NCBI GenBank assembly: GCA_025449845.1
Contig: JANWIP010000017.1
Coordinates: 62,001 to 126,000, forward strand
Length of the DNA stretch: 64,000 nt
Direction: 5' to 3'
Origin: Solirubrobacteraceae bacterium
Lineage (GTDB): Bacteria; Actinomycetota; Thermoleophilia; Solirubrobacterales; Solirubrobacteraceae
Shown: piece by piece, positions 4,061 to 55,970 of the stretch
Numbering within the stretch: the stretch's first letter is position 1
How the letters are laid out: the number at the start of each line of letters is the position of its first letter
Translations under genes and position numbers: made by a program
The notes under the pieces: model-generated
The model's database searches: none
What the model was told of the DNA's origin: nothing
Seen by the model: only the letters and a program-made list of their open reading frames with translations

Positions 4061-4921
4061 ATGGCCGACCCCTCAGCGACACCTCAGCCAGGCGTCCCTG
4101 CAGGCGGTCGGAGCGAAGGCAGCGTGGGCATCGCGGTGGTGACCTATCGCCGTGCCGAGCGCCTGCGGCGACTGCTGGAGGCGATCGTGCTGCTTACGCG
4201 CGAGCCTTATGAGCTGGTGGTGGCCGAGGATGGCGGCGAGGACGGCAGCGTGGAGTGGTGTCGCGCCCAGGGGCATGCGGTCGTCAGCGGGCCCAATCGC
4301 GGCGTGGCGTGGAACAAGAACCGCGGCCTTTTCGCGCTAGCGGCGCTCGGCTGCGATCCGCTGCTGCTGATCGAGGACGACGTGTATCCGGTGGCGCCCG
4401 GCTGGGAGCGCGACTGGATCGAAGGCACGCGCCGCTGGCACCATCTCGCCTACCACCATCCCAAGGTCGCCAAGCACACCGTGAGCGGTGCGGGGACGCC
4501 GGCGGACCCCTTCGTGAACCCGGCCGCGACCGCGCAGTGCCTGTCGGTCTCAGCGCGGGTGCTGGGGAAGGTGGGCTTCTTCGATAGCCGTTTTCGTGGA
4601 TGGGGCCACGAGCACGCGGAGTGGACGACGCGCATCAAGCGCGCGGGCTATGGCTTTGAGTCGATCGTCTTAAGCGACGGCCGCGGGGCGAAGGCGCAGC
4701 TCTACCTCTCGGGCGGGCTCACGGCCGAGCATGCTGCGAGCTTTCGCGATGACGCGCAGGCTCGGCGCAACCGCGAGCTGGCCAGGAGCCTGCAGGGCGA
4801 ACCGCTCTACAGACGCCCGTGGCAGAACCTGGCAGAGCGGCGCGAGTTCCTTGCCGAGCAGGCCGCGGGAGGCATCGACGGCAATGCGCTGGCGCGCCGG
4901 CTGGACGGGCGTGGCGCCTGA
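4061..4921 (+). CDS. GT-A (GT2-like) glycosyltransferase, paralogue 1
   Basis: 286 residues from the ATG at 4061, one base after the preceding stop. Residues 21-210 form a GT-A fold: N-terminal VGIAVVTYRR, a first acidic patch VAEDGGEDGS, the strongly conserved NRGVAWNKNRGLF, and an EDDV motif in the DxD position that binds the nucleotide-sugar metal. The acceptor side carries GWGHEHAEWTTRIKRAGYGF. Two close paralogues occur at 33479 and 54387, sharing these blocks and the C-terminal RRPW and FLAEQ motifs. The open frame extends upstream into the preceding gene, but similarity to the paralogues starts only after 4061. The stop codon lies in the first unit of a 17-bp repeat array. Confidence 0.88.
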   Translation: MADPSATPQPGVPAGGRSEGSVGIAVVTYRRAERLRRLLEAIVLLTREPYELVVAEDGGEDGSVEWCRAQGHAVVSGPNRGVAWNKNRGLFALAALGCDPLLLIEDDVYPVAPGWERDWIEGTRRWHHLAYHHPKVAKHTVSGAGTPADPFVNPAATAQCLSVSARVLGKVGFFDSRFRGWGHEHAEWTTRIKRAGYGFESIVLSDGRGAKAQLYLSGGLTAEHAASFRDDAQARRNRELARSLQGEPLYRRPWQNLAERREFLAEQAAGGIDGNALARRLDGRGA

Positions 4922-4989
4922 GCGGGCGTGGCGCCTGAGCGGGCGTGGCGCCTGAGCGGGCGTGGCGCCTGAGCGGGCGTGGCGCCTGA
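4905..4989. repeat. five 17-bp tandem units carrying stop codons
   Basis: Five perfect or near-perfect copies of GCGGGCGTGGCGCCTGA lie at 4905-4921, 4922-4938, 4939-4955, 4956-4972 and 4973-4989. Each ends in TGA, and 17 is not a multiple of three, so TGA recurs in all three plus-strand frames. The first TGA is the stop of the glycosyltransferase; the array ends 2 nt before the end of the convergent gene at 4992. Confidence 0.95.
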
Positions 4990-4991
4990 GC

Positions 4992-11632: not shown

Positions 11633-14600
11633 GTGAGCCGCGTCCTGAGAACTCTGCTGATCCTCCTCGTGCTGCTCGTTTTCGGTGCGAGCGCGTCTGC
11701 GCTTGCGTTCAGATCTGGCGGGGCGCCACGGCTTGCGTCTAGGTCTGCGCTTGCGTCTAGATCTGGCGGGGCGCCACGGCTTGCGTCTAGGTCTGCGCTT
11801 GCGTCTAGATCTAGCGGGGCGTCCGCGCTTGCGTTCAGATCTGGTGGGCCATCCGCGCTTGCGTCGGCGTTTTCTTCTGAAACGAGCACTTCGGTCACGA
11901 CTACCACCTCCGCTTCAACCTCGTCAGGTCTCTATCCGATTCCGGCCCCAGCGAGCCCCACGGTCGAAACCTCAACCTCAACCTCAACTTTAGCTCCACC
12001 GAGTTCCGCTCCATCGGGGCCCGGAGAATTGGCGCCCTCGGTGGGGACCCCTGCCGTGGTGGGTCAAGACGCGCAACCGACCACGGCAGTCACCGCGCGC
12101 CGGAGCGGACGGCGCAGGCACAAGCGCCATCATGCGAAACGGCGGGGGGCCGCGGACAGCGGTGGCACGCCAGCCGGCCCCAGCGCGCCGAGCGCGGCTG
12201 AAGTCCCGGGTCCTTCGCCGATCGGAGCGACCGTTGGCCTGCCACCGGAACCGCTGGCTGCGGCGGGTATTGGTGGACAGGGCAATCCGCTCGGAGGCTC
12301 CCCGTTCCCTCCTGGACAGCTGCCGAGCTTCTACATCGAAACCTATCGCGTGCCTCCTCGCCTGCTGCCGATCTACCAGTCCGCGGCAGCCCGCTATGGC
12401 GTGCCGTGGGAGGTGCTCGCGGGGATCAACGAAGTTGAGACCAACTACGGGCAGGATCTGTCGGTCTCAAGCGCCGGCGCCGAGGGCTGGATGCAGTTTC
12501 TGCCGCAGACCTGGGCGGAGTACGGCGTTGACGCCGACGGCAAGGGCGTGCGTGACCCCTACGACCCGGCCGACGCGATCTTCGCCGCCGCGCGTTACCT
12601 GCGCGCCGCCGGCGCCGGACAGAGCCTGACGGGCGCGATCTTCGCCTACAACCACTCCGGCCTGTACGTCGAATCGGTGATGTTGCGCGCACGACTGCTG
12701 GCCGGCATCCCACCGGCGCTGCTGAAGGCGTTGACGGCGCTCGGCGAGGGGCAGGGGCGGGCAGGGGCCATTCCTGCCGGCGCGGCTGGTGGCGGTTTGG
12801 CTGGCCGCGGCTCGGCCGGTGGTGGCTCGGCTGGTGGTGGTTCGGCCGGTGGTGGCTCGGCTGGCACGGGCGCCGATTTTGCTCCCTCGCCAAGCGCCGC
12901 CGCGAGGGGCGCGGCCGCCGCAAGTGGGCTCTCCACCGCGCAGTGGCACGAGTTGATGCGGAGAGTCGCGCAGTTGCCCCAGCCGCGCGTGCCGCTGACG
13001 CCCACGAGCGCCTCGCTGCCCGACAGACCGGGCGGGGTCGATCTGCCACCGCCGGCGCAGGCCGGGGCACCGGCGCTCGGTCTCGCGCCGCAGGCCGCTA
13101 CCGGCGATGTCGGGTCCCTTGCCTCGGGGGCCGGGTCGATTGCTCTAAACTCCAGCATCGCGACCCCCTCCGCCAGCCAGGCGTCGGGAGGTCTGAGCTT
13201 TCAGCCGGAACTGGGGCTGCCGGCGGAAGCGGTGAACATGGTCGGTGCGGCGCCGAGGGAAGAAGCGGGCAAGCCGGGCGTCGTCTGGGCGACGGGAGAG
13301 ATCGGGGCGGTTCCCGCGAGTGCCGGCGCTCAGGAGATCGTCAAGACCCAGGTGCTGCTGCACCATGCCGCGGGAGGTCCCGGCTGGCAGATCGTGCCCG
13401 TGCAGGACGAAAGCGGCGGCAAGCTTCCCTGGAGCGGCACGCCCAGCGTCACGGCCAGCGGTGGCATCGTGCTGAACAGCGTCATCGAAAGCGAACCGCA
13501 CAAGCCGCTGGACACGATCGTGACGCGCCTGCATGACGATGTTTTCGCGCAGGCGAGCGCCCCCGCGAGTGGGCCAGGGAAGCCGCTGGAAACGGGAGAA
13601 ACCCTCTACCCCACGGGATCTCAGGCCGCGCCGATCTTTACCGCGATCGACGATGCGGGTCGCACCGGCGCGCTGGTGGTGCCCGCTGGGGCCCCTTCGG
13701 TCACAGGTGTGGTGCACTACGACGGCACGCAGTGGACACGCGAGCAGATCTGCACGCAGTACGTTGCCCAGAACTGCAGCGACGGCGCGAAAGGCCTGCA
13801 GGTCCTCGCGATCGCCGCCGACTCGGCGCAGAACGCCTGGCTGTTGGCCAGCACCGGCGCCGAACCGCTGATGTTGTTTAAGCGCACCGCCGCGAGCACC
13901 GGCCCACCCGTATGGGTACAGAGTCAGCCCGCGAGTTGGGAGCCTAGCCCCGACAAGGTCTTTGCGCGCGCCGGTGGCCAGATGCTGACGGTCACCAGCC
14001 AGGGGGTGTGGGTGGACGCCTCGCTCACCTCTCCGGCGGCGCCCAATACGACCGCCGACCTCTCGCTGCTTGTGGACGCTGCCTCGCCGAACACGATCCT
14101 GGGCAGCTGGTGCTTCCCGCAGGCTGCCTGCGGTCAGGGCTCCCTCGGCGCCCCTTTGCCGAGCAGCTACAAGAGCTTCGCCTGGCCCGGATCGGGCTCG
14201 GCCGATCTGGGGACGCGGATCGTCGCGGGCCTCGGCAGGGGCGCGCTGCTGCGCTTCCAGCACGCCGGTGACTTCCAGTACATCGTGGGCGGCGGCGGCA
14301 ACTCCTCGGGTGACGCGGCATTCGCCACGCCCGAAGAAGGCTGGATCTCCGCCGCGGCGGCCGCGGGCGCCACCCCGAGCGCGCAGGTGGTTCACGTCAC
14401 CGCCAACCCCTCGTCCGCGGCGCTCCAGCCCTGGCCGCTGCCCTTCCGTCGCCCGCTGAGCGCGGTTGCCTCCCAGCCTGGTAGGACGCCTGGCGACCCC
14501 GGCGCGCAGGTGCTGGCGGTTGGCGACCGCGGGCAGGTCGCGCGCTACCTGCCCGGCGAGGGCTGGACGCCCGAATTCCTCCTCAGCGCCGCAGGCGCAC

Positions 14601-21335: not shown

Positions 21336-21420
21336 GGCTGAACCTCGGCTAGGAATGGCTGAACTAGGTGTGGGCTGAACCTCGGCTAGGAATGGCTGAA
21401 CTAGGTGTGGGCTGAACCTC
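21336..21420. repeat. 37-bp tandem repeat downstream of a secreted-protein gene
   Basis: Two identical 37-bp units (21336-21372 and 21373-21409) and an 11-nt partial third begin 6 nt after the stop at 21330. Each holds short motifs TGAACCTCGGCTAGG and TGAACTAGG, so TGA and TAG recur. The unit length is not a multiple of three. No clear terminator hairpin was seen here. Confidence 0.93.
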
Positions 21421-27828: not shown

Positions 27829-29778
27829 ATGATGCCTCGGAACATCCTCATATACGCCACCGTCGTCATTGCGCCCGCAGCGTTGGCGATCGCAGGCCTG
27901 AGCACCACGGTGGCCGATTCCATACCGGCGGGCCAGGCGACCACGCCGATCAAGCACGTTGTGGTGATCTTCGAGGAGAACGCCACCTTCGACCATTACT
28001 TCGGCACCTACCCGCACGCCGTGAACCCGCCAGGTGAGCCGCGGTTCGTGGCGCGGCCCGGAACGCCGGCCGTGAATGGCCTGAGCGAAACGCTGCTGCT
28101 CGACAACCCCAATGCCGCCGATCCTCAGCGCCTGGACCGCGCGCAGCCGCTGACGTGCGACCAGGATCACCACTACAAGGCCGAGCAGCAAGCCTATGAC
28201 GGTGGTCTGGTGGACCAGTTCGTGCAGCACACCGCCGGCAGTGAATGCACCGGCGCCGAACCGGGGCCGACCGGCCAGAACAAGACGACCGTGATGGACT
28301 ACTACGACGGCAACACCGTCACGGCGCTGTGGAACTACGCCCAGCACTACACCCTGGAGGAGAACTCCTTCGGGACGCAGTTCGGACCGTCCTCGCCGGG
28401 GCACCTGAACCTCGTAAGCGGGGAAACGGGCGGGGCGAGCGCGACCAAGCCCAACAGCAGCCTGGCCAACGGCTCGCTGATCGGCAACGCCTACCCACAG
28501 TACGACGACTGCGTGGGGGATGGCAACAAGCCCGGAGGCGTCTCGGAACCGGCGCTCATCTCGATGTCCGGGAGAAACGTGGGCAACCTGCTGAACGCCG
28601 GGAGCGTGAGTTGGGGCTGGTTCCAGGGCGGCTTCACACCCACCGGCATGAACGCCGAAGGCAGAGCTGAATGCCGCACCTCACACGACAACGTGGGCGC
28701 GCAGAAGAGCTACTCCGACTATGTCTCCTACCACGAGCCCTTCCAGTACTACGCCTCGACCGCCAACCCCCATCACCTGCCCCCGACCTCGGTCGGCGCC
28801 GTGGGCGAGAGCGATCGAGCCAACCACCAGTACGACCTCTCGTATTTCAACGGTGCGCTCGCCGAAGGCAACCTGCCCGCTGTCTCCTTCCTCAAGCCTG
28901 CCGCTTACGAGGATGGTCACCCCGGCTACTCGGACCCGCTTGACGAACAGCGCTATCTGGTCGACACCATCAATGCGATCGAGCGCTCGCCGCAATGGTC
29001 CAGCACGGCAGTCATCGTCTCCTGGGATGACTCCGACGGCTGGTACGACCATGTGATGCCGCCGATCGTGCGTTCCTCGGCGTCCCCACAGGACAACCTG
29101 GATGGCCCGGAAAAGTGCGGCACGCTGCCCAGCCCTCTCCCGCCGTCCTTCCAGCAGGATCGCTGTGGCTACGGCCCGCGGCTGCCGCTTCTGGTGATCT
29201 CCCCGTGGGCGCGCGAAAACTACGTCGATAACACCCTCACCGACCAGTCCTCGATCCTGCGCTTCATCGAGGACAACTGGCAACTGGGCCGCATCGGCGG
29301 CAATTCCTCCGACGCCGAAGCGGGCTCGCTGGAAAGCGCCTTTGACTTCAACCCGAGCGACCTCCGCGCTGCCACGGTGATGCTCGATGACACCACGGGG
29401 GAAGTCCTGCCTCCGGCGCGCCCCGGCGAACCGCCCTCATCCACGGCCGGCCCGGGAGCGCCGCCGCCCACCGTCACCGGTCGTCGTGGCCCGGCGAGGG
29501 CCGTCGGCTGTTCGCTCTCACTCGAGAAGCATCATCGCCGTCGCCTCGCGGTCACCTGTCGCTTCACGGCGATCGGTATCCATGGGCGCGCGGCTGTCCG
29601 CATGCGCCTCGTGCGCCGCGGTCGCGTACTCGCAACCGCTCGCGCCTTCCTGCACGATTCCCAGGCCACAACGATCCTGCGCCTCGAGCGCATCCCCAAA
29701 GGCAGCTACACCCTCCGCATCGTGCTCACCAGCCGAGCCGCCGTCCTTGGCTTCGTGCGCTCGGTGAGGGTGGGCTGA
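27829..29778 (+). CDS. phospholipase C / acid-phosphatase-type secreted phosphoesterase
   Basis: 649 residues from the first of two adjacent ATGs at 27829. A short N-terminal hydrophobic segment (ILIYATVVIAPAALAIAGL) should direct export. The phosphoesterase family (phosphatidylcholine-hydrolysing phospholipase C group) is shown by IKHVVVIFEENATFDHYFGT at the N-terminus, NSFGTQFGPSSPGHLNLVSG, EDGHPGYSDPLDEQRYLVD and AVIVSWDDSDGWYDHVMPP, which hold the metal-binding Glu, Asn, Asp and His positions. The last 110 residues are an added beta-sandwich (CSLSLEKHHRRRLAVTCRF, RGRVLATARAFL). Such enzymes free phosphate from lipids or esters and are often induced by phosphate shortage. It follows the ars cassette and precedes the sulfated-glycan genes. 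Confidence 0.88.
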   Translation: MMPRNILIYATVVIAPAALAIAGLSTTVADSIPAGQATTPIKHVVVIFEENATFDHYFGTYPHAVNPPGEPRFVARPGTPAVNGLSETLLLDNPNAADPQRLDRAQPLTCDQDHHYKAEQQAYDGGLVDQFVQHTAGSECTGAEPGPTGQNKTTVMDYYDGNTVTALWNYAQHYTLEENSFGTQFGPSSPGHLNLVSGETGGASATKPNSSLANGSLIGNAYPQYDDCVGDGNKPGGVSEPALISMSGRNVGNLLNAGSVSWGWFQGGFTPTGMNAEGRAECRTSHDNVGAQKSYSDYVSYHEPFQYYASTANPHHLPPTSVGAVGESDRANHQYDLSYFNGALAEGNLPAVSFLKPAAYEDGHPGYSDPLDEQRYLVDTINAIERSPQWSSTAVIVSWDDSDGWYDHVMPPIVRSSASPQDNLDGPEKCGTLPSPLPPSFQQDRCGYGPRLPLLVISPWARENYVDNTLTDQSSILRFIEDNWQLGRIGGNSSDAEAGSLESAFDFNPSDLRAATVMLDDTTGEVLPPARPGEPPSSTAGPGAPPPTVTGRRGPARAVGCSLSLEKHHRRRLAVTCRFTAIGIHGRAAVRMRLVRRGRVLATARAFLHDSQATTILRLERIPKGSYTLRIVLTSRAAVLGFVRSVRVG

Positions 29779-29812
29779 GCGATCCAGGCGATGGCGTGCA
29801 CGGACAATCAAG

Positions 29813-29898
29813 GTGGCCGGCGCTCATGAGCGATGCACGCTTGAGGGCCAATCAGGTTGGCAGGCGCTCATGAGCGATGCACGCCTAAGGGCCAATCA
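29813..29898 (+). repeat. tandem duplication (44 bp between start codons) of a gene start
   Basis: Two near-identical copies at 29813-29855 and 29856-29898 each contain GCTCATGAGCGATGCACGC and GGGCCAATCAG. The two ATGs at 29826 and 29870 are 44 bp apart, so the copies are in different frames. A more degenerate third copy may lie just upstream. Confidence 0.92.
29826..29873 (+). CDS. 15-codon minicistron from the duplicated sulfotransferase start
   Basis: MSDARLRANQVGRRS ends in a TGA that overlaps the ATG of the sulfotransferase (ATGA at 29870-29873). Its first ten residues are identical to the sulfotransferase N-terminus because both come from the same duplicated sequence. It could act as a leader for translational coupling. 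Whether it is translated is unknown. Confidence 0.45.
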   Translation: MSDARLRANQVGRRS

Positions 29899-30715
29899 GG
29901 GTGTCATTACGCCCGGGCCTCCGCCGCAGTGTCCAGCAGGCTGGCACACGGGCCCCCCCGACTTCGTCGGCATCGGCGCCCAGCGCTCGGGCACAACGCG
30001 CTGGTTCGACCTCGTCATTGAGCACCCGCTGATCGAGGCGCCGCCGGCGACGCGCAAAGAGCTGCACTACTTCGACCGCTTCCATCCCGGCGGTTTCACG
30101 GCGAGTGACGCCGCCGCCTATCACGACTACTTCCCGCGCCCCCGAGGCCATTTGACGGGCGAGTGGACTCCTGTCTATCTGGCGGCCCCTTGGGCGCCCC
30201 CGATGCTCGCGGCTGCCGCTCCTGACGCGAAGCTGCTGGTCAGCCTGCGCGACCCGGTCGAGCGCTACCTCTCCGGTCTCCAGCGCCACAACCGTGTGGC
30301 CCGCGCCAGCGACACACCGCTCGACGCCATGGCCCCGCTCGATGCCTTCATGCGCGGTTTCTACCATGCCCAGTTGACCCATCTGCTCGCCCACTTCGAC
30401 CGTTCGCGGGTCCTGATCCTTCAGTACGAGTGCTGCGTGCGCGATCCAGTCGCTCAACTGCGGCGCACCTTCGCCTTTCTCGGCCTGCAGGACACCTCCT
30501 TTCTCCCCGGCCTGGAGGCTCATCCCAATCATCAGCCCGACAAGCCGGCCTTGCATGCCGACGCTCGTCGTGCCCTGGTGCAGGCTTACTCCCCGGATGT
30601 CGCTCGGTTGATCGACAGCTTCCCGGAGATCGATCTCGCGCTGTGGCCGAACTTCGCGCACCTCGTTGCAAGCGGAATGGGAGAGCGGGCGAGCGGAACG
30701 GGGGAGCCGTTATGA
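29870..30715 (+). CDS. PAPS-dependent sulfotransferase
   Basis: 281 residues from the ATG at 29870 (an in-frame GTG at 29813 in the first repeat copy is less likely). Family motifs: FVGIGAQRSGTTRWFDLV with the phosphosulfate loop, KELHYFDRF just after it, typical of heparan/chitin-type sulfotransferases, LVSLRDPVERYLSGLQRH as the 3'-phosphate site, and VLILQYECCVRDP in the third strand. The protein is cytoplasmic and would sulfate a sugar or lipid-linked glycan. The ATGA overlap with the next gene makes it part of the operon leading into the sulfotransferase-GT2 fusion. Confidence 0.9.
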   Translation: MSDARLRANQGVITPGPPPQCPAGWHTGPPDFVGIGAQRSGTTRWFDLVIEHPLIEAPPATRKELHYFDRFHPGGFTASDAAAYHDYFPRPRGHLTGEWTPVYLAAPWAPPMLAAAAPDAKLLVSLRDPVERYLSGLQRHNRVARASDTPLDAMAPLDAFMRGFYHAQLTHLLAHFDRSRVLILQYECCVRDPVAQLRRTFAFLGLQDTSFLPGLEAHPNHQPDKPALHADARRALVQAYSPDVARLIDSFPEIDLALWPNFAHLVASGMGERASGTGEPL

Positions 30716-33438
30716 CCCGTGCGGGAGACGCCGCAACGGGATCTGCGGTGGTCGTGCTGGGGATGGCACGGAGTGGGACCTCGGCGATCACCCGGCTGTT
30801 GGCCCTGCTGGGGGTCCAGTTGGGTTCTGAAGGGGCGCTCATGCCAGCGGCGGGAGAGAACGCGAAAGGCTTCTTCGAGCACCGTCCGATGATGCGGATC
30901 AACAAACAGCTGCTGGAGCGGCTGGGCGGGTCCTGGTCTGAGCCGCCGCGGCTCCCGGACGGTTGGCAGTGGGATGCGGGGCTTGACGATCTGCGCGCGC
31001 AGGCCCGCGAGCTGATCGCAGCCGAGTTCGCGGGTGCCCGGCTGTGGGGGTTCAAGGACCCGCGCACTTCGCTGACGCTGCCTTTTTGGGATGAGCTGCT
31101 CGGCGAGGCCAGGTATGTGATCTGCCATCGCCGGCCGCTTGACAGCGCGCGCTCGCTGGAGAAGCGCAACGGGATCAGACTCGACGAAGGCGTCGAGCTG
31201 TGGACGCGTTATACGGCTTCGGCGCTTGCGCACACGGCGGGGCGCCGGCGCATCCTGGTTGGTTACGAGGAGCTGTTCACCGATCGCGAAGCGCTCGTGA
31301 GAGAGCTTGCCGACTTCCTCGGTGTGGCCGAGCAGGCCGAGAGCCCGCGCCTGCGCGCGGAGGTCGAGGGGTGGATCGAGGAGGGGCTGCGCCATCACGC
31401 CGGTACGCTGCGTGAGCTGCTGGAGCACCCTGCGGTGTCGGCGCAGGCGCAGGCGCTGCACCTGCTGCTGGGGCTCTCTGCTGCCTCGCGCCGCGACGAC
31501 GCCGTGAGCGGCGGCTGCGACGATGCGCTCGACGGCATGGCCCGCACGCTGCTGCGCCGGGCGGACGCGCGGGCGGCCCTGGCTCCGATGGCGGCGGGGT
31601 CACTGGCGGCGGCGGATCGTGACTCCGCTTCGATCACGAACGATCCCTCGCACAACGGCTATGTCTCGCGTAAGCCTCTCCAGCGGCGTGAGGCGCCCAC
31701 GGGCCACGCGGTCGGGGGCATTGACGCCAGCATAGTTGTGGTTTTCGGCGACGATCCTTGGGGCGCCATGGCCTGCATGGAGAGCCTTGCGGAGCTCGCC
31801 CCGGGCTCCCCGCCGCATGAGATGGTGCTGGTTGACAATGCGTCGCTCGGGCTGCGTGCGACTCTTGATGCGCTTGTCGGCGATGTGCAAATCGTCTACT
31901 TGCCCGAGCGCGTCAGCGTAATTGCGGCGCTGCGTGCGGGTGCGGAGGTTGCCACCGGAGAGGTCGTTGTCTGCCTGCCCGCCCCGGCTCTGTTCGCTGC
32001 TGACGCATTTGCTGTCATGTGCAACGAACTGTGTCACGGCCTCGCTGCGGTGGCCTCGGTCGATCCCGAGGCTCACATGGCTCATCCCACAGCGGCCCAC
32101 GCGCTCGCGTTGCGCCGCGATGCCCTGCCTGCGCTCGAGCTGCCCGCGCTCGATGACGTGCCTGACGAGCAGATCATCGCCGCGCTGTGCCTGGAGCTGG
32201 CCGGCAACGGTATGGCCCCAGTGTGCGTCGATGCCCACGTCTCCTCTCCGCCGACGCCCATCTGTCGGCGTGGGCCGGGGGTCGAGCAGATCGAGGTCTC
32301 CGTTGTCATCCCCACCCTCGACGGCGCCTCGCGGGAGGTCCGCGAGTGCCTGCGCGCGGTGCAGGCCACGATTCGCGTGCCCCACGAGATCGTCGTCGTC
32401 GACAACGGCGCTCCGCCGCAAGGATTCACGGCGCCTGTCAACGCTGCCCTGCGTGCGGCCCGTGGGCGCCACCTGGTTGTGATGAACGACGATGTGCGGG
32501 TGCTCGACGGCTGGTGGGAGCCGCTTGCCGACGCGCTCGACGGGGGCGCACCGCTCGTGTTTCCGCTGACCGTCGAGGGGCGCATGCGCTGGGAGTTCGC
32601 CGCCTGGTGCTTTGCGATGCGTCGCGAGACCTTCGAGGACATGGCCAGTGAGCCGCATGAGTTCTTCGATCCCAGCATGGTCCTCTGGTGCCAGGACATC
32701 GATCTGCGCAAGCGCCTCAGCGCTCGGGGCACTCCGCCGCTGTGCGTGCCCGAGTCGCGCATTCGCCACGTCGGCTCGCGCACCGTGCGCGTCGCGGCAC
32801 CTCACCACGCGCTGCGCCTCTGGATCCACGCCCAGGCCGCCGGCGACACCGAGGTCTTTCGCGCGCGCTACCCGCAGGAGAGCGGCGCGCGGGAGCAAAG
32901 CAGCGCACGGGAGGAGAGAGGCACGCGCGAGGAAAGCGGCGCGCGCGAGCACGACGGACTGCCGCCCGCCTCGCCCATCCTCACGCCCGAGCACCTTGAG
33001 CTTGCTCTCGCCGAGGACACCCTTCGCTTCCGCGCCGACGGGCCCGCGTGGGAGAGCCATACGCTGGCCTGGCCGCATGATGCAGGGCACTTCTTCCTCG
33101 CCGGCGAGATGGAGGTTCGCTCGCCGGACTCCGTCCAGGACATCCTCGTGCGCGCCGTCTTCGCCGATGACGAGCGCGAGCTGTACTGGATGGACCTCGT
33201 GCCGGGCGTGCTCGGGACCGGGCGCATCGCCTTCACGCTGCCGCGCGAGCGGGCCCGTCCGATCCGCCTCGCGCCCGGTGAAGCGCCGGCCGACTGGTCG
33301 CGGGTGTGTACCGTGCGCCTCTGCGCCCGCTCGCGTCTGCGCGGAGCGCTGCATCGTGCGCCGGACGCGCCCGGAGCCACGACCGCCGTGCTCACCAACC
33401 TGCGCCTGCTCGCGCTCCCGGCCGAGGTGCTTCGATGA
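30712..33438 (+). CDS. sulfotransferase - tandem GT2 fusion with C-terminal beta-sandwich
   Basis: 908 residues from the ATG at 30712 (ATGA overlap). Residues 10-270 are a sulfotransferase: VVVLGMARSGTSAITRLLAL, GFKDPRTSLTLPFW and CHRRPLDSARSLEKR. Residues about 337-520 form a degenerate GT2-like segment (IVVVFGDDPWGAM, LVDNASLGLR). Residues about 529-710 form a fuller GT2 domain: VSVVIPTLDGASREVRECLR, MNDDVRVLDGWW with the DxD-like site, and LWCQDIDLRKRLSARG. An 18-bp repeat (SAREQS-like) precedes a terminal beta-rich domain (ESHTLAWPHDAGHFFLAGEM). Sugar transfer and sulfation are probably coupled. It is followed by the GT-A gene at 33479. Confidence 0.85.
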   Translation: MTRAGDAATGSAVVVLGMARSGTSAITRLLALLGVQLGSEGALMPAAGENAKGFFEHRPMMRINKQLLERLGGSWSEPPRLPDGWQWDAGLDDLRAQARELIAAEFAGARLWGFKDPRTSLTLPFWDELLGEARYVICHRRPLDSARSLEKRNGIRLDEGVELWTRYTASALAHTAGRRRILVGYEELFTDREALVRELADFLGVAEQAESPRLRAEVEGWIEEGLRHHAGTLRELLEHPAVSAQAQALHLLLGLSAASRRDDAVSGGCDDALDGMARTLLRRADARAALAPMAAGSLAAADRDSASITNDPSHNGYVSRKPLQRREAPTGHAVGGIDASIVVVFGDDPWGAMACMESLAELAPGSPPHEMVLVDNASLGLRATLDALVGDVQIVYLPERVSVIAALRAGAEVATGEVVVCLPAPALFAADAFAVMCNELCHGLAAVASVDPEAHMAHPTAAHALALRRDALPALELPALDDVPDEQIIAALCLELAGNGMAPVCVDAHVSSPPTPICRRGPGVEQIEVSVVIPTLDGASREVRECLRAVQATIRVPHEIVVVDNGAPPQGFTAPVNAALRAARGRHLVVMNDDVRVLDGWWEPLADALDGGAPLVFPLTVEGRMRWEFAAWCFAMRRETFEDMASEPHEFFDPSMVLWCQDIDLRKRLSARGTPPLCVPESRIRHVGSRTVRVAAPHHALRLWIHAQAAGDTEVFRARYPQESGAREQSSAREERGTREESGAREHDGLPPASPILTPEHLELALAEDTLRFRADGPAWESHTLAWPHDAGHFFLAGEMEVRSPDSVQDILVRAVFADDERELYWMDLVPGVLGTGRIAFTLPRERARPIRLAPGEAPADWSRVCTVRLCARSRLRGALHRAPDAPGATTAVLTNLRLLALPAEVLR
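32875..32948 (+). repeat. 18-bp in-frame repeat coding SAREES-like hexapeptides
   Basis: About four copies encode charged hexapeptides (GAREQS, SAREER, GTREES, GAREHD) between the GT2 and beta-sandwich domains, an interdomain spacer of variable length. Confidence 0.8.
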
Positions 33439-33492
33439 GCTTTGGGATTGTGTTCGTGGTCGCTGCCGAGGTGCTTCGATGAGCCTTGGGAT
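33421..33492 (+). repeat. second 44-bp tandem duplication across a start codon
   Basis: Copies at 33421-33448 and 33465-33492 share GCCGAGGTGCTTCGATGAGC and TTGGGAT. Their ATGs at 33435 and 33479 are 44 bp apart, exactly as in the duplication at 29826/29870, but the sequence is unrelated. Confidence 0.93.
33435..33482 (+). CDS. 15-codon minicistron from the duplicated glycosyltransferase start
   Basis: MSFGIVFVVAAEVLR begins at an ATG overlapping the stop of the upstream fusion gene (ATGA) and ends in a TGA overlapping the ATG of the glycosyltransferase (ATGA). Ribosomes could thus pass from gene to gene through two overlaps. Its first five residues copy the true protein start (MSLGI). Translation is not shown. 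Confidence 0.45.
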   Translation: MSFGIVFVVAAEVLR

Positions 33493-34294
33493 CGCGGTCA
33501 TCACCTACCGGCGGCGCGACCGCTTCGAGCCGCTGATGGAGCGCCTCGCCCGCTTCACCGAGGCGCCCTACGAGCTGGTGGTCGCCGACGACGACGGCCG
33601 GGACGGCACCGTGGAGTGGTGCCATGCGCGGGGTATACGCATCATCACCGGCGAAAACCGCGGCGTCGCGCGCAATAAGAATCGTGGGCTCTTCGCGCTG
33701 GCCAGCCTCGGCTGCGACCCGATCCTGATCATGGAGGACGATGTCTACCCGGACGTGCCGGGGTGGGAGGCCGACTGGGTGCAGGCGACGCGGCGCTGGC
33801 ACCATATGTCCTACCTGCACCCGCGCATCGCCGATGCGACCGTTTCGGGCAGGGGCACTCCGGAGGATCCCTTCGTCAATCCGAAGGCCACCGCTCAGTT
33901 GCTTACGATCTCCGCGCGCGCTCTCTCCGAGGTTGGCTACCTCGACAGCCGCTTCATCGGCTGGGGACACGCGCATGGCGAGTGGACCACGCGCATCAAG
34001 CGCGCCGGCTACGGCTTCAAGCCGATCGTCCTTCCCGACGGCACCAAGCCCAAGGCGCAGCTCTACCTCATCGGCGGCCTGGTTGATAACGAGGGCAGCC
34101 GCTGGCGCGACGAGGAATCCGGCCGGCGCAACCGCGAGCTGTACAGGCAGATATACCCCGAGCCGATCTTCCGCCGTCCCTGGCGCTCAGCGCATGAGCG
34201 CGCCGCTTTTCTCGCCGAGCAGAGCCAGGCGGGGATCGACGGCGAGGAGCTTGCCGCGGCACTCGATGCGGCGCTGGACCTCACCGCGGCCTGA
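33479..34294 (+). CDS. GT-A (GT2-like) glycosyltransferase, paralogue 2
   Basis: 271 residues from the ATG at 33479. It has the same blocks as the genes at 4061 and 54387: LGIAVITYRRRDRFEPL, VADDDGRDGTVEW, NRGVARNKNRGLFALASLGC, MEDDVYPDVPGWE with the DxD-position acids, GWGHAHGEWTTRIKRAGYGF and FRRPWRS. It should transfer a sugar from a nucleotide donor to a cytoplasmic lipid-linked glycan. It closes the plus-strand run that starts with the sulfotransferase at 29870. Its end overlaps the convergent methyltransferase gene by 14 nt. Confidence 0.88.
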   Translation: MSLGIAVITYRRRDRFEPLMERLARFTEAPYELVVADDDGRDGTVEWCHARGIRIITGENRGVARNKNRGLFALASLGCDPILIMEDDVYPDVPGWEADWVQATRRWHHMSYLHPRIADATVSGRGTPEDPFVNPKATAQLLTISARALSEVGYLDSRFIGWGHAHGEWTTRIKRAGYGFKPIVLPDGTKPKAQLYLIGGLVDNEGSRWRDEESGRRNRELYRQIYPEPIFRRPWRSAHERAAFLAEQSQAGIDGEELAAALDAALDLTAA

Positions 34295-54386: not shown

Positions 54387-55187
54387 ATGCTTGGTATCGG
54401 GATCGTCACCTATCAGCGGCGGAGCCTGCTTGAGCGGCTCATCGCCAGTGTTGCCGAACTGACCGACAGCCCTCACGAGCTGGTGGTCGCCGAGGACGGG
54501 AGCGAGGATGGGAGCGCCGAGTGGGCTCGTGAGCAGGGTTTGCGCGTCGTCTCAGGGGCCAATCGGGGGGTGGCCTGGAACAAGAACCGCGCACTGTTCG
54601 CGCTCGCCCGGCTTGGCTGCGATCCGCTGGTTCTGCTTGAGGACGATGCCCTTCCGGTGGTTGATGGATGGGAGCGCGATTGGATTGAGGGCACCCGCGC
54701 ATGGCATCACCTGGCCTGTGACCCGAAGGTTGCCCGGCACGCGGTATCGGGCGCGGGGACGCCCACCGATCCGTTCGTGAGCCCGGCGGCGACCGGCTTT
54801 TGCATGTCGATCTCGGCCAAGGTTCTCGATCTGGTGGGCTACTTCGACAGTCGCTTCGTTGGCTACGGGCACGAGCACAGTGAGTGGACCTCCCGAATCA
54901 AGCGGGCCGGATACGGCTTCCAGCCGATCACGCTGCCCGACGGCCGCGGATTCAAGGGTCAGCTTTTCTTGACAGGGGGGCTGGCCTTGGTGAAGGTCAA
55001 GGGTACGGGCACGGCGGCTCAGGCCCGGGCCAACCGCGAGGTAGGGCGGCTGCTCGCCGGCGAGCCGGTCTTCCGCCGTCCCTGGCGCACGTCTGAGGAG
55101 CGAGCCAGCTTTCTGGCGGAGCAGGCAGCAGCCAAGATCGATGGTGCGAGTCTCGCGGCGCGTCTTGACGCCCGTTCATCGGGCTAG
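54387..55187 (+). CDS. GT-A (GT2-like) glycosyltransferase, paralogue 3
   Basis: 266 residues from the ATG at 54387, 21 nt after the upstream stop. It shares with the genes at 4061 and 33479 the blocks LGIGIVTYQRRSLLERL, VAEDGSEDGSAEW, NRGVAWNKNRALFALARLGC, LEDDALPVVDGWERDW, GYGHEHSEWTSRIKRAGYGF and the C-terminal FRRPWRT and FLAEQAAAKIDG. The metal-binding acids in LEDDA are kept. It probably works on the same glycan after the lyase-methyltransferase gene upstream. Its TAG stop lies in the first unit of a 16-bp repeat, echoing the stop-codon array behind paralogue 1. Confidence 0.88.
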   Translation: MLGIGIVTYQRRSLLERLIASVAELTDSPHELVVAEDGSEDGSAEWAREQGLRVVSGANRGVAWNKNRALFALARLGCDPLVLLEDDALPVVDGWERDWIEGTRAWHHLACDPKVARHAVSGAGTPTDPFVSPAATGFCMSISAKVLDLVGYFDSRFVGYGHEHSEWTSRIKRAGYGFQPITLPDGRGFKGQLFLTGGLALVKVKGTGTAAQARANREVGRLLAGEPVFRRPWRTSEERASFLAEQAAAKIDGASLAARLDARSSG

Positions 55188-55220
55188 AGGTTCATCGGGC
55201 TAGAGCTTCATGAGCTAAAG
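55174..55220. repeat. 16-bp tandem repeat carrying stop codons at a gene end
   Basis: GTTCATCGGGCTAGAG occurs at 55174-55189 and 55190-55205, followed by a degenerate third copy CTTCATGAGCTAAAG. The units carry TAG, TAG and TAA. The array fills the space between this gene and the convergent methyltransferase gene. Confidence 0.9.
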
Positions 55221-55970
55221 GTGCTCAACGAAGCAAAGCTCGCAGCCGATCGACACCGCGGACAAATCGGTGGGTGTAACGACCGATCGCTCCTGGATCG
55301 CGGGCAGCAGCGCTGGTAGGTGTCGCAGATTGGGGTCGCGGCCGATCTTCATCTGCATGATGAGCATGCCCACGCTGCGTACGGCCTCGATGAAGTCAAC
55401 GACGGTCATGCGGTTGAGCTGATCGCACATCACCCGCCAGCGCTTGGGGGGGAGTACTTCCTTGAGCTCCGGCGTGGAGCGCCACAGGTGCTCCCATGGC
55501 TCGCGGTTGATGTGGCCTCCTAGCGAGGAGTACCAGAGGGAGTCGGCGAAGATCGCCACGCGGCCTCCTGGGCGCAGCAGGGGGCGGAAGGCGCCCAGCA
55601 CGCCTTTGAGGTCGAAGACGTGCTCGAAGACGCCGTTGGAGACGATCAGGTCGTACTGCTCGCCGGTCAGCGCCGTGTCGTGGATGTTCTGTTCGCGGAA
55701 TTCATAGGCGCTGAACTCGATGCCCTCCTCCTCCATCGCCAGCCGCAGCGGTGCGGGGTTGACGTCGTAGAGGTCCACCGCCACCACCGAGCGCGCGCCG
55801 TGGCGCGCGGCCCACAGGATCTCGTTGCCGATGCCCGAGCCGAACACCAGCAGGTCCTTGCCGGCGGGGTCGCCGTAGGGCAGCAGGTCGCCATCGAGCT
55901 TGCGCTCGCGGTGCAGCAGGTAGTCCTTCAGCTCCACCACCTGCTCGTCATTGAGCTGGGCGACGCTCAC
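55215..55970 (-). CDS. SAM-dependent methyltransferase
   Basis: 251 residues from the GTG at 55970. Class I methyltransferase: KDLLVFGSGIGNEILWAARH for SAM binding, SVVAVDLYDVNPAPLRLAME with the ribose-binding Asp, YDLIVSNGVFEHVFDLKGVL and LLRPGGRVAIFADSLWYSS. The C-terminal part (PKRWRVMCDQLNRMTVVDF) resembles sugar or lipid methyltransferases. It is monocistronic, convergent with the glycosyltransferase at 54387 and divergent from the methyltransferase at 56064. A short palindrome CTCAC-A-GTGAG at 55966-55976 covers the start codon. Confidence 0.85.
   Translation of the reverse strand: MSVAQLNDEQVVELKDYLLHRERKLDGDLLPYGDPAGKDLLVFGSGIGNEILWAARHGARSVVAVDLYDVNPAPLRLAMEEEGIEFSAYEFREQNIHDTALTGEQYDLIVSNGVFEHVFDLKGVLGAFRPLLRPGGRVAIFADSLWYSSLGGHINREPWEHLWRSTPELKEVLPPKRWRVMCDQLNRMTVVDFIEAVRSVGMLIMQMKIGRDPNLRHLPALLPAIQERSVVTPTDLSAVSIGCELCFVEHL

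Follow-up and report, generated by a model that had tools for sequence, protein, structure and literature searches.

Start regions of operon genes in the genome of this Solirubrobacteraceae bacterium (the host) have repeatedly been duplicated in tandem, each locus with its own unit. Where stop and start codons overlap (ATGA, GTGA or TGATG) and the copies are spaced by 3n-1 nucleotides, the duplication creates a short ORF ending on the next start, and such ORFs mostly begin on the stop of the previous gene. A duplication length of 44 bp is not special; the phase 3n-1 is. On the evidence of sequence comparison, it seems fairly likely that junction duplications are kept when their length preserves termination-reinitiation, and that two 44 bp duplications in the window (the whole 64,000-nucleotide stretch analysed) are two instances of this filter.

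The duplications lie at two gene starts in the window, among the following features:

27829-29778, + strand: phosphoesterase-family gene upstream of the first pair (PF04185, E 6.4e-83)
29791-29829, + strand: 12-codon ORF, MACTDNQGGRRS, whose TGA overlaps ATG 29826 (sequence, minicistron list)
29802-29903, + strand: first pair, 44 bp tandem duplication of about 2.2 copies (repeat search)
29826-29873, + strand: 15-codon minicistron, MSDARLRANQVGRRS, whose TGA overlaps ATG 29870 as ATGA (sequence)
29870-30715, + strand: sulfotransferase gene (PF13469, E 1.1e-13; PF00685, E 6.3e-9), with a rival start at GTG 29813
30712-33438, + strand: sulfotransferase and GT2 glycosyltransferase gene (sequence, domain search)
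33407-33494, + strand: second pair, 44 bp tandem duplication of a gene-gene junction with a strong core at 33421-33450 (repeat search)
33435-33482, + strand: 15-codon chimeric minicistron, MSFGIVFVVAAEVLR, whose TGA overlaps ATG 33479 as ATGA (sequence)
33479-34294, + strand: GT2-family glycosyltransferase gene (PF00535, E 1.2e-8)

Direct reading bore out exactly the geometry given by the first-pass annotation: ATG 29826 and ATG 29870 are 44 bp apart, as are ATG 33435 and ATG 33479, and both first copies read 15 codons into an ATGA overlap. The repeat search of the window returned 44-nt pairs at 29802/29846 (86 %) and 33407/33451 (84 %). Both are head-to-tail copies with a constant period; the tandem-repeat listing included the first (2.2 copies) and not the second. 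The two units are unrelated, as had been claimed, with each duplicated stretch matching only itself and no other copy of either present in the whole host genome. This led to the rejection of a shared element behind the duplications, as did the nine host tracts listed below, which matched only themselves in 2.82 Mb of searched sequence.

The two pairs differ in detail. At the first, similarity at an offset of 44 extends beyond 44 nt because there is a third occurrence of CAATCA(A/G)G, and since this motif stands three times at 44 bp steps the duplication may have originated between short direct repeats. The ORFs at 29791-29829 and 29826-29873 form two minicistrons in series. At the second, similarity is concentrated in 33421-33450 (28 of 30 bases), while 33407-33420 is weakly similar (9 of 14 bases; Fisher P=0.025 versus the core). 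The first copy here is the end of the upstream gene, which starts in an ATGA overlap with the preceding gene and ends in the ATGA at 33435. As this first ATGA is a true gene end, the thing duplicated is a gene-gene ATGA junction; the minicistron is therefore chimeric, its N-terminal part coming from the downstream protein and its C-terminal part from the upstream one (MSFGIV...AEVLR). The sulfotransferase, sulfotransferase/GT2 and GT2 genes are co-directional.

No close orthologs of the two window genes were present in 40 relatives, where the best identity to the sulfotransferase was at most 51 % and the GT2 protein had weak matches only; a search for related loci gave one homolog (L061). The window holds three paralogous GT2 genes (4121-4920, 33479-34294 and 54390-55187), the outer two sharing 62 % and 55 % identity with the middle one, and the duplication and start-anchored scans listed no start duplication at either of the outer paralogs. 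Two GT2 genes end in tandem repeats that multiply the stop-codon region, 17 bp in five copies at 4906-4991 and 16 bp in three copies at 55174-55222. Elsewhere in the window, a 48 bp repeat rich in TCTAGATCT-like motifs occupies 11695-11834, within about 900 bp that contain no called genes, and a 37 bp tandem repeat with 100 % matches follows directly after a gene end at 21336-21420.

Duplications were surveyed in a non-random sample of the host genome (92.6 % complete, 2.6 % contamination) comprising 1,221,831 of 3,274,599 bases (37 %), namely a large part of contig 17 together with the opening stretches of many other contigs. Genes were called with a simple codon-usage caller, giving 977 in the sample. 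There were 98 tandem duplications, 61 of them not inside genes, and among these 61 the commonest lengths were 44 and 33 bp (four each), with several other lengths found three times each. This tie led to the rejection of 44 bp as a special length. The first-pass annotation had proposed a survey for enrichment of 44 bp; its outcome counts against that length and not against the phase 3n-1. A further 44 bp repeat, of about 3.2 copies and without an ATGA overlap, lies upstream of a gene at the end of a contig (L060, G000:C15:1-141), and a 20 bp repeat of more than five copies lies just after a gene end (L045, 7096-7208).

A start-anchored scan (27-base context, at least 20 matches, spacing 14-150) found duplicated starts at 15 of the 977 genes, ten at 3n-1, five at 3n and none at 3n+1. 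A tract-based version gave 14 start duplications with a similar distribution (9, 5 and 0, respectively). The excess of 3n-1 over 3n+1 was significant under equal odds (10:0, binomial P=0.002) and also after removal of the two window pairs that had prompted the survey (8:0, P=0.008). The host sample contains 17,810 internal in-frame NTG codons, and testing these in the same way produced 31 matches, every one at 3n. Comparable copies at 3n-1 or 3n+1 were absent, which rules out chance similarity for the pairs. Host duplications outside starts were distributed 13:8 between 3n-1 and 3n+1, a contrast with starts of P=0.03 only, in which one 35 bp case (L073) is counted in both groups. The numbers are small, and small counts and clustered matches weaken the phase rule. 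A 40 bp (3n+1) duplication at a gene end (L082, 8108-8188) carries ATGA in both copies; since no called gene start follows and both ATGs open frames of only 22-24 codons, it neither breaks nor proves the rule. In L089 (14969-15074), a 47 bp duplication yields a 16-codon ATGA-coupled ORF. The 23-codon ORF behind it terminates short of the following called gene, and the arrangement may be a relay that has decayed.

All but one of the ten 3n-1 cases, the exception being L073, proved to be coupled by overlap when read letter by letter, with spacings of 29, 29, 32, 41, 44, 44, 44, 77 and 119:

Window sulfotransferase: spacing 44
Window GT2 gene: spacing 44
hyuA-hyuB (L089): spacing 41, 14 codons
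trpA (PF00290) after a pyridoxal-phosphate-enzyme gene (PF00291) (L092): 119 in total, 40 codons
neuB (L094): spacing 29, minicistrons of 10 codons
Nucleotidyltransferase after a GT2 gene (L095): spacing 32, two minicistrons of 11 codons
HAD hydrolase after a GT2 gene (L096): spacing 44, two minicistrons of 15 codons
Alanine-racemase-like gene (L096): spacing 29, chain of 24, 10 and 10 codons
sucD after sucC (L096): spacing 77, 25 codons, TGATG overlaps

These cases combine a stop-start overlap (ATGA or TGATG) with co-directional genes, and in seven of the nine the first ORF of the chain opens on the stop of the upstream gene itself, the exceptions being the first window pair and neuB, whose outermost spacing of 28 (3n+1) is uncoupled. 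The PF00291 gene before trpA is taken for trpB by its place and family; the 40-codon minicistron that follows it contains two copies of a 48 bp (3n) repeat, which keeps the frame. Five of the nine cases lie on a single contig (C13), three of them in one 20 kb stretch, so they are not fully independent. All nine tracts matched only themselves in the 2.82 Mb searched. Pairing with the anti-Shine-Dalgarno sequence was weak at some real starts (trpA -1.8 and the nucleotidyltransferase -0.2 kcal/mol) and stronger at the first copies (-7.1 and -4.2 kcal/mol, respectively), a pattern that would fit a dependence of the real starts on coupling. Uniform conservation of a Shine-Dalgarno sequence among the copies was looked for and not found. 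The earlier suggestion of a start-stop coupling device gains from the phase counts and the nine overlap-coupled minicistrons, its function staying putative, while a special role for 44 bp and a duplication mechanism shared by 44 bp units find no support in spacings that vary among the coupled cases.

A scan independent of duplications looked for series of short ORFs, linked by overlaps of 4 or 1 nt, that lead from an upstream stop to a downstream start. In all sets together, 54 such relay structures were found in 1122 usable junctions (of 1278 co-directional) versus 24.7 in shuffles. The host contributed 28 versus 12.0, and 21 versus 12.0 once seven duplication-derived relays were removed. As the shuffle was a simple mononucleotide one and the background comes largely from short ORFs, this excess is supporting evidence only.

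Eight related genomes (1.6 Mb, 1338 called genes) were sampled for comparison. Start duplications were rarer there, with the start-anchored scan finding five in 1338 genes, three at 3n, two at 3n+1 and none at 3n-1. Start duplications in the sampled relatives therefore neither show nor support the 3n-1 rule. The tract scan returned one start duplication per phase in the relatives; its 3n-1 case, of 20 bp, belongs to G022 and reads MTHSFKR and a stop onto the next ATGA. The 3n+1 cases were a 16 bp duplication in G029, with ATGA in both copies and no called co-directional gene just before, and a 22 bp duplication in G002, with ATGT, located after the end of a gene and ahead of a start called further on; a called upstream stop was present at neither of the two. 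One 3n case (L165, 51 bp) does coincide with an ATGA junction, where it would lengthen the protein by 17 residues.

The sucC-sucD junction could be followed more widely, with gaps estimated from match coordinates. Matches to the two genes were adjacent in 21 of 24 genus genomes, host included; the other three were dropped because the matches were absent, partial or on different contigs. In 17 of the 21 the junction was in direct-overlap phase, with gaps of -19 to 23 nt estimated from coordinates only. The remaining four (host, G009, G010 and G012) had estimated gaps of 43-76 nt, and each was in the phase that a 3n-1 insertion would produce. Reading of these four showed that each contains a minicistron (14, 20, 21 or 25 codons) overlapping its neighbours on either side. 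In G009, G010 and G012 (14, 20 and 21 codons), sucC ends in TGATG or ATGA and the minicistron leads by TGATG onto sucD; the minicistron sequences of these three other species are unrelated. A duplication is visible in G010 (18 identical bases, spacing 62). None was found on reading G009 (44) or G012 (65), indicating either old duplications that have decayed or sequence of another origin. Outside the genus, the overlap phase was seen in 13 of 15 genomes; G038 is in another phase, and G029, with a gap of 102 nt, in the third.

The trpB-trpA junction was in overlap phase in 16 of 23 genus genomes and in another phase in seven, several of which have no long insertion. It is less informative than sucC-sucD, because small gaps occur in two phases without long insertions and the two long ones that were read look most like protein extensions. 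These other long off-phase gaps, in G021 and G019, are best interpreted as a lengthened TrpB and a lengthened TrpA, with the overlap retained. In L202/L203, TrpB of G021 seems to be extended, overlapping trpA by 8 nt, and trpA of G019 may start at TTG, overlapping trpB by 8 nt. Long in-phase gaps also exist in G011 and G017; the reading covered G021 and G019. Orthologs of the other affected genes gave nothing informative in the sampled sequence, that of the nucleotidyltransferase (L183) reaching only about 20 nt upstream of the gene.

These observations suggest a mechanism in which duplication of a junction would keep the stop of the upstream gene in its first copy and the start of the downstream gene in its last. 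With a spacing of 3n-1, the ORF opened by the first start would end on the second overlap, so that ribosomes arriving from the upstream gene could reinitiate on the minicistron, terminate at the following overlap and from there start again on the real gene. A spacing of 3n would merely add N-terminal residues and keep the coupling. With 3n+1, a reinitiating ribosome would cross the real start in the wrong frame, and such duplications would be removed by selection. We infer both the ribosome relay and the selection against other phases, and the minicistron peptides probably have no function of their own. A wider version of this proposal is more tentative and, in our view, possible rather than probable: that operon evolution is rule-governed across the genus, with coupled junctions growing only in relay-keeping steps and minicistrons of arbitrary sequence accumulating as translational repeaters, whose number may tune the SucC : SucD or TrpB : TrpA ratio. 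Should the phase filter itself prove right, translational coupling would be a constraint powerful enough to determine what lengths of inserted DNA operons accept between their genes. The spacing of copies at a duplicated junction, taken modulo 3, would then offer a test from sequence only of whether a gene pair is truly coupled, usable in uncultured bacteria.

Filtering by phase has to be weighed against neutral coincidence, in which the minicistrons are a by-product, formed without selection, of a duplication-prone genome with common NTGA starts and chance 3n-1 lengths. Duplications are frequent in the host (80 per Mb versus 22.5-47.5 in the sampled relatives), and the sampled relatives show no 3n-1 excess. 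The fourth base is A (NTGA) in 41 % of 946 called starts versus 18 % of codons, making the overlap itself cheap, since any 3n-1 duplication at such a start yields one; this bias, present in 99 % of the bacterial genomes studied, has its own explanation (PMC5850271). However, coincidence does not account well for the absence of 3n+1 among the ten non-3n start duplications of the host, for three of three newly read sucC-sucD expansions being phased and open, or for relay structures at about twice the level of the simple shuffle, and we consider it unlikely, though deserving of attention. A more local objection concerns the first pair, where the true start may be GTG 29813 or another codon, the minicistron then being an annotation illusion and the repeat N-terminal coding sequence. 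This GTG is in frame, would give a longer sulfotransferase N-terminus in an open 300-aa frame and was the start picked by the codon-usage gene caller; alignments with the closest homologs begin only around residue 15-25. However, a 44 bp duplication within the gene would shift the frame, and the context of ATG 29826 is repeated base for base over 22 nt at ATG 29870. The upstream gene of the second pair ends at the first copy, so that pair is untouched by the objection, which we judge quite improbable even at the first.

Two further explanations fit poorly. Open frames, and recognisable initiation regions in part of the cases, would suit regulatory leader peptides or functional small proteins, but the sequences differ between loci and, at sucC-sucD, between species, and the second window minicistron and others are chimeras of the flanking gene ends, which makes a peptide function very unlikely. 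Insertion of a dispersed, mobile repeat like the mycobacterial interspersed repetitive units (MIRUs) would explain the geometry of the ends, which is as in MIRUs (PMC12548453), but is contradicted by window units that match only themselves in the host genome and tracts that do so in the 2.82 Mb searched, and its probability is minimal.

Filtering of local duplications by phase can be set beside several known systems. A 2025 review presents MIRUs as repeats that seem to be mobile and whose ORF comes to be coupled at -4 spacing (PMC12548453). The likeness lies in a short ORF at a start codon, coupled at -4 spacing, by which sequence enters while expression is little affected (PMC12548453); ATGA at 29870 and 33479 gives the same 4-nt overlap with the downstream start, the sucD minicistron using a 1-nt TGATG overlap instead. 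However, MIRUs are one repetitive, seemingly mobile family, whereas the sequences described here are local copies of their own junction, with no homologous dispersed family in the host genome or, for the nine tracts, in 2.82 Mb. MIRU units are 77 and 53 bp long, both 3n-1. If the proposed filter is correct, it would provide a simple route to MIRU-like architecture without a mobile element. ATGA and TGATG overlaps and termination-reinitiation are well described (PMC6728339); the difference here is that the two genes are separated by a duplicated minicistron, or at times by a series of two or three, that may act as a relay. Upstream ORFs that deliver ribosomes are similar in that a short ORF serves solely to hand ribosomes to the next gene (PMC12548453), a role that is putative here, but the present ones are born by duplication of a gene's own start region inside operons. 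Bacterial intergenic minisatellites likewise consist of local head-to-tail copies at gene ends, and are frequent in the host, although the start spacings here appear to be filtered to 3n-1 or 3n. Among the matches listed from titles and abstract openings of open-licence PMC literature, none described a 3n-1 rule for locally duplicated coupled junctions.
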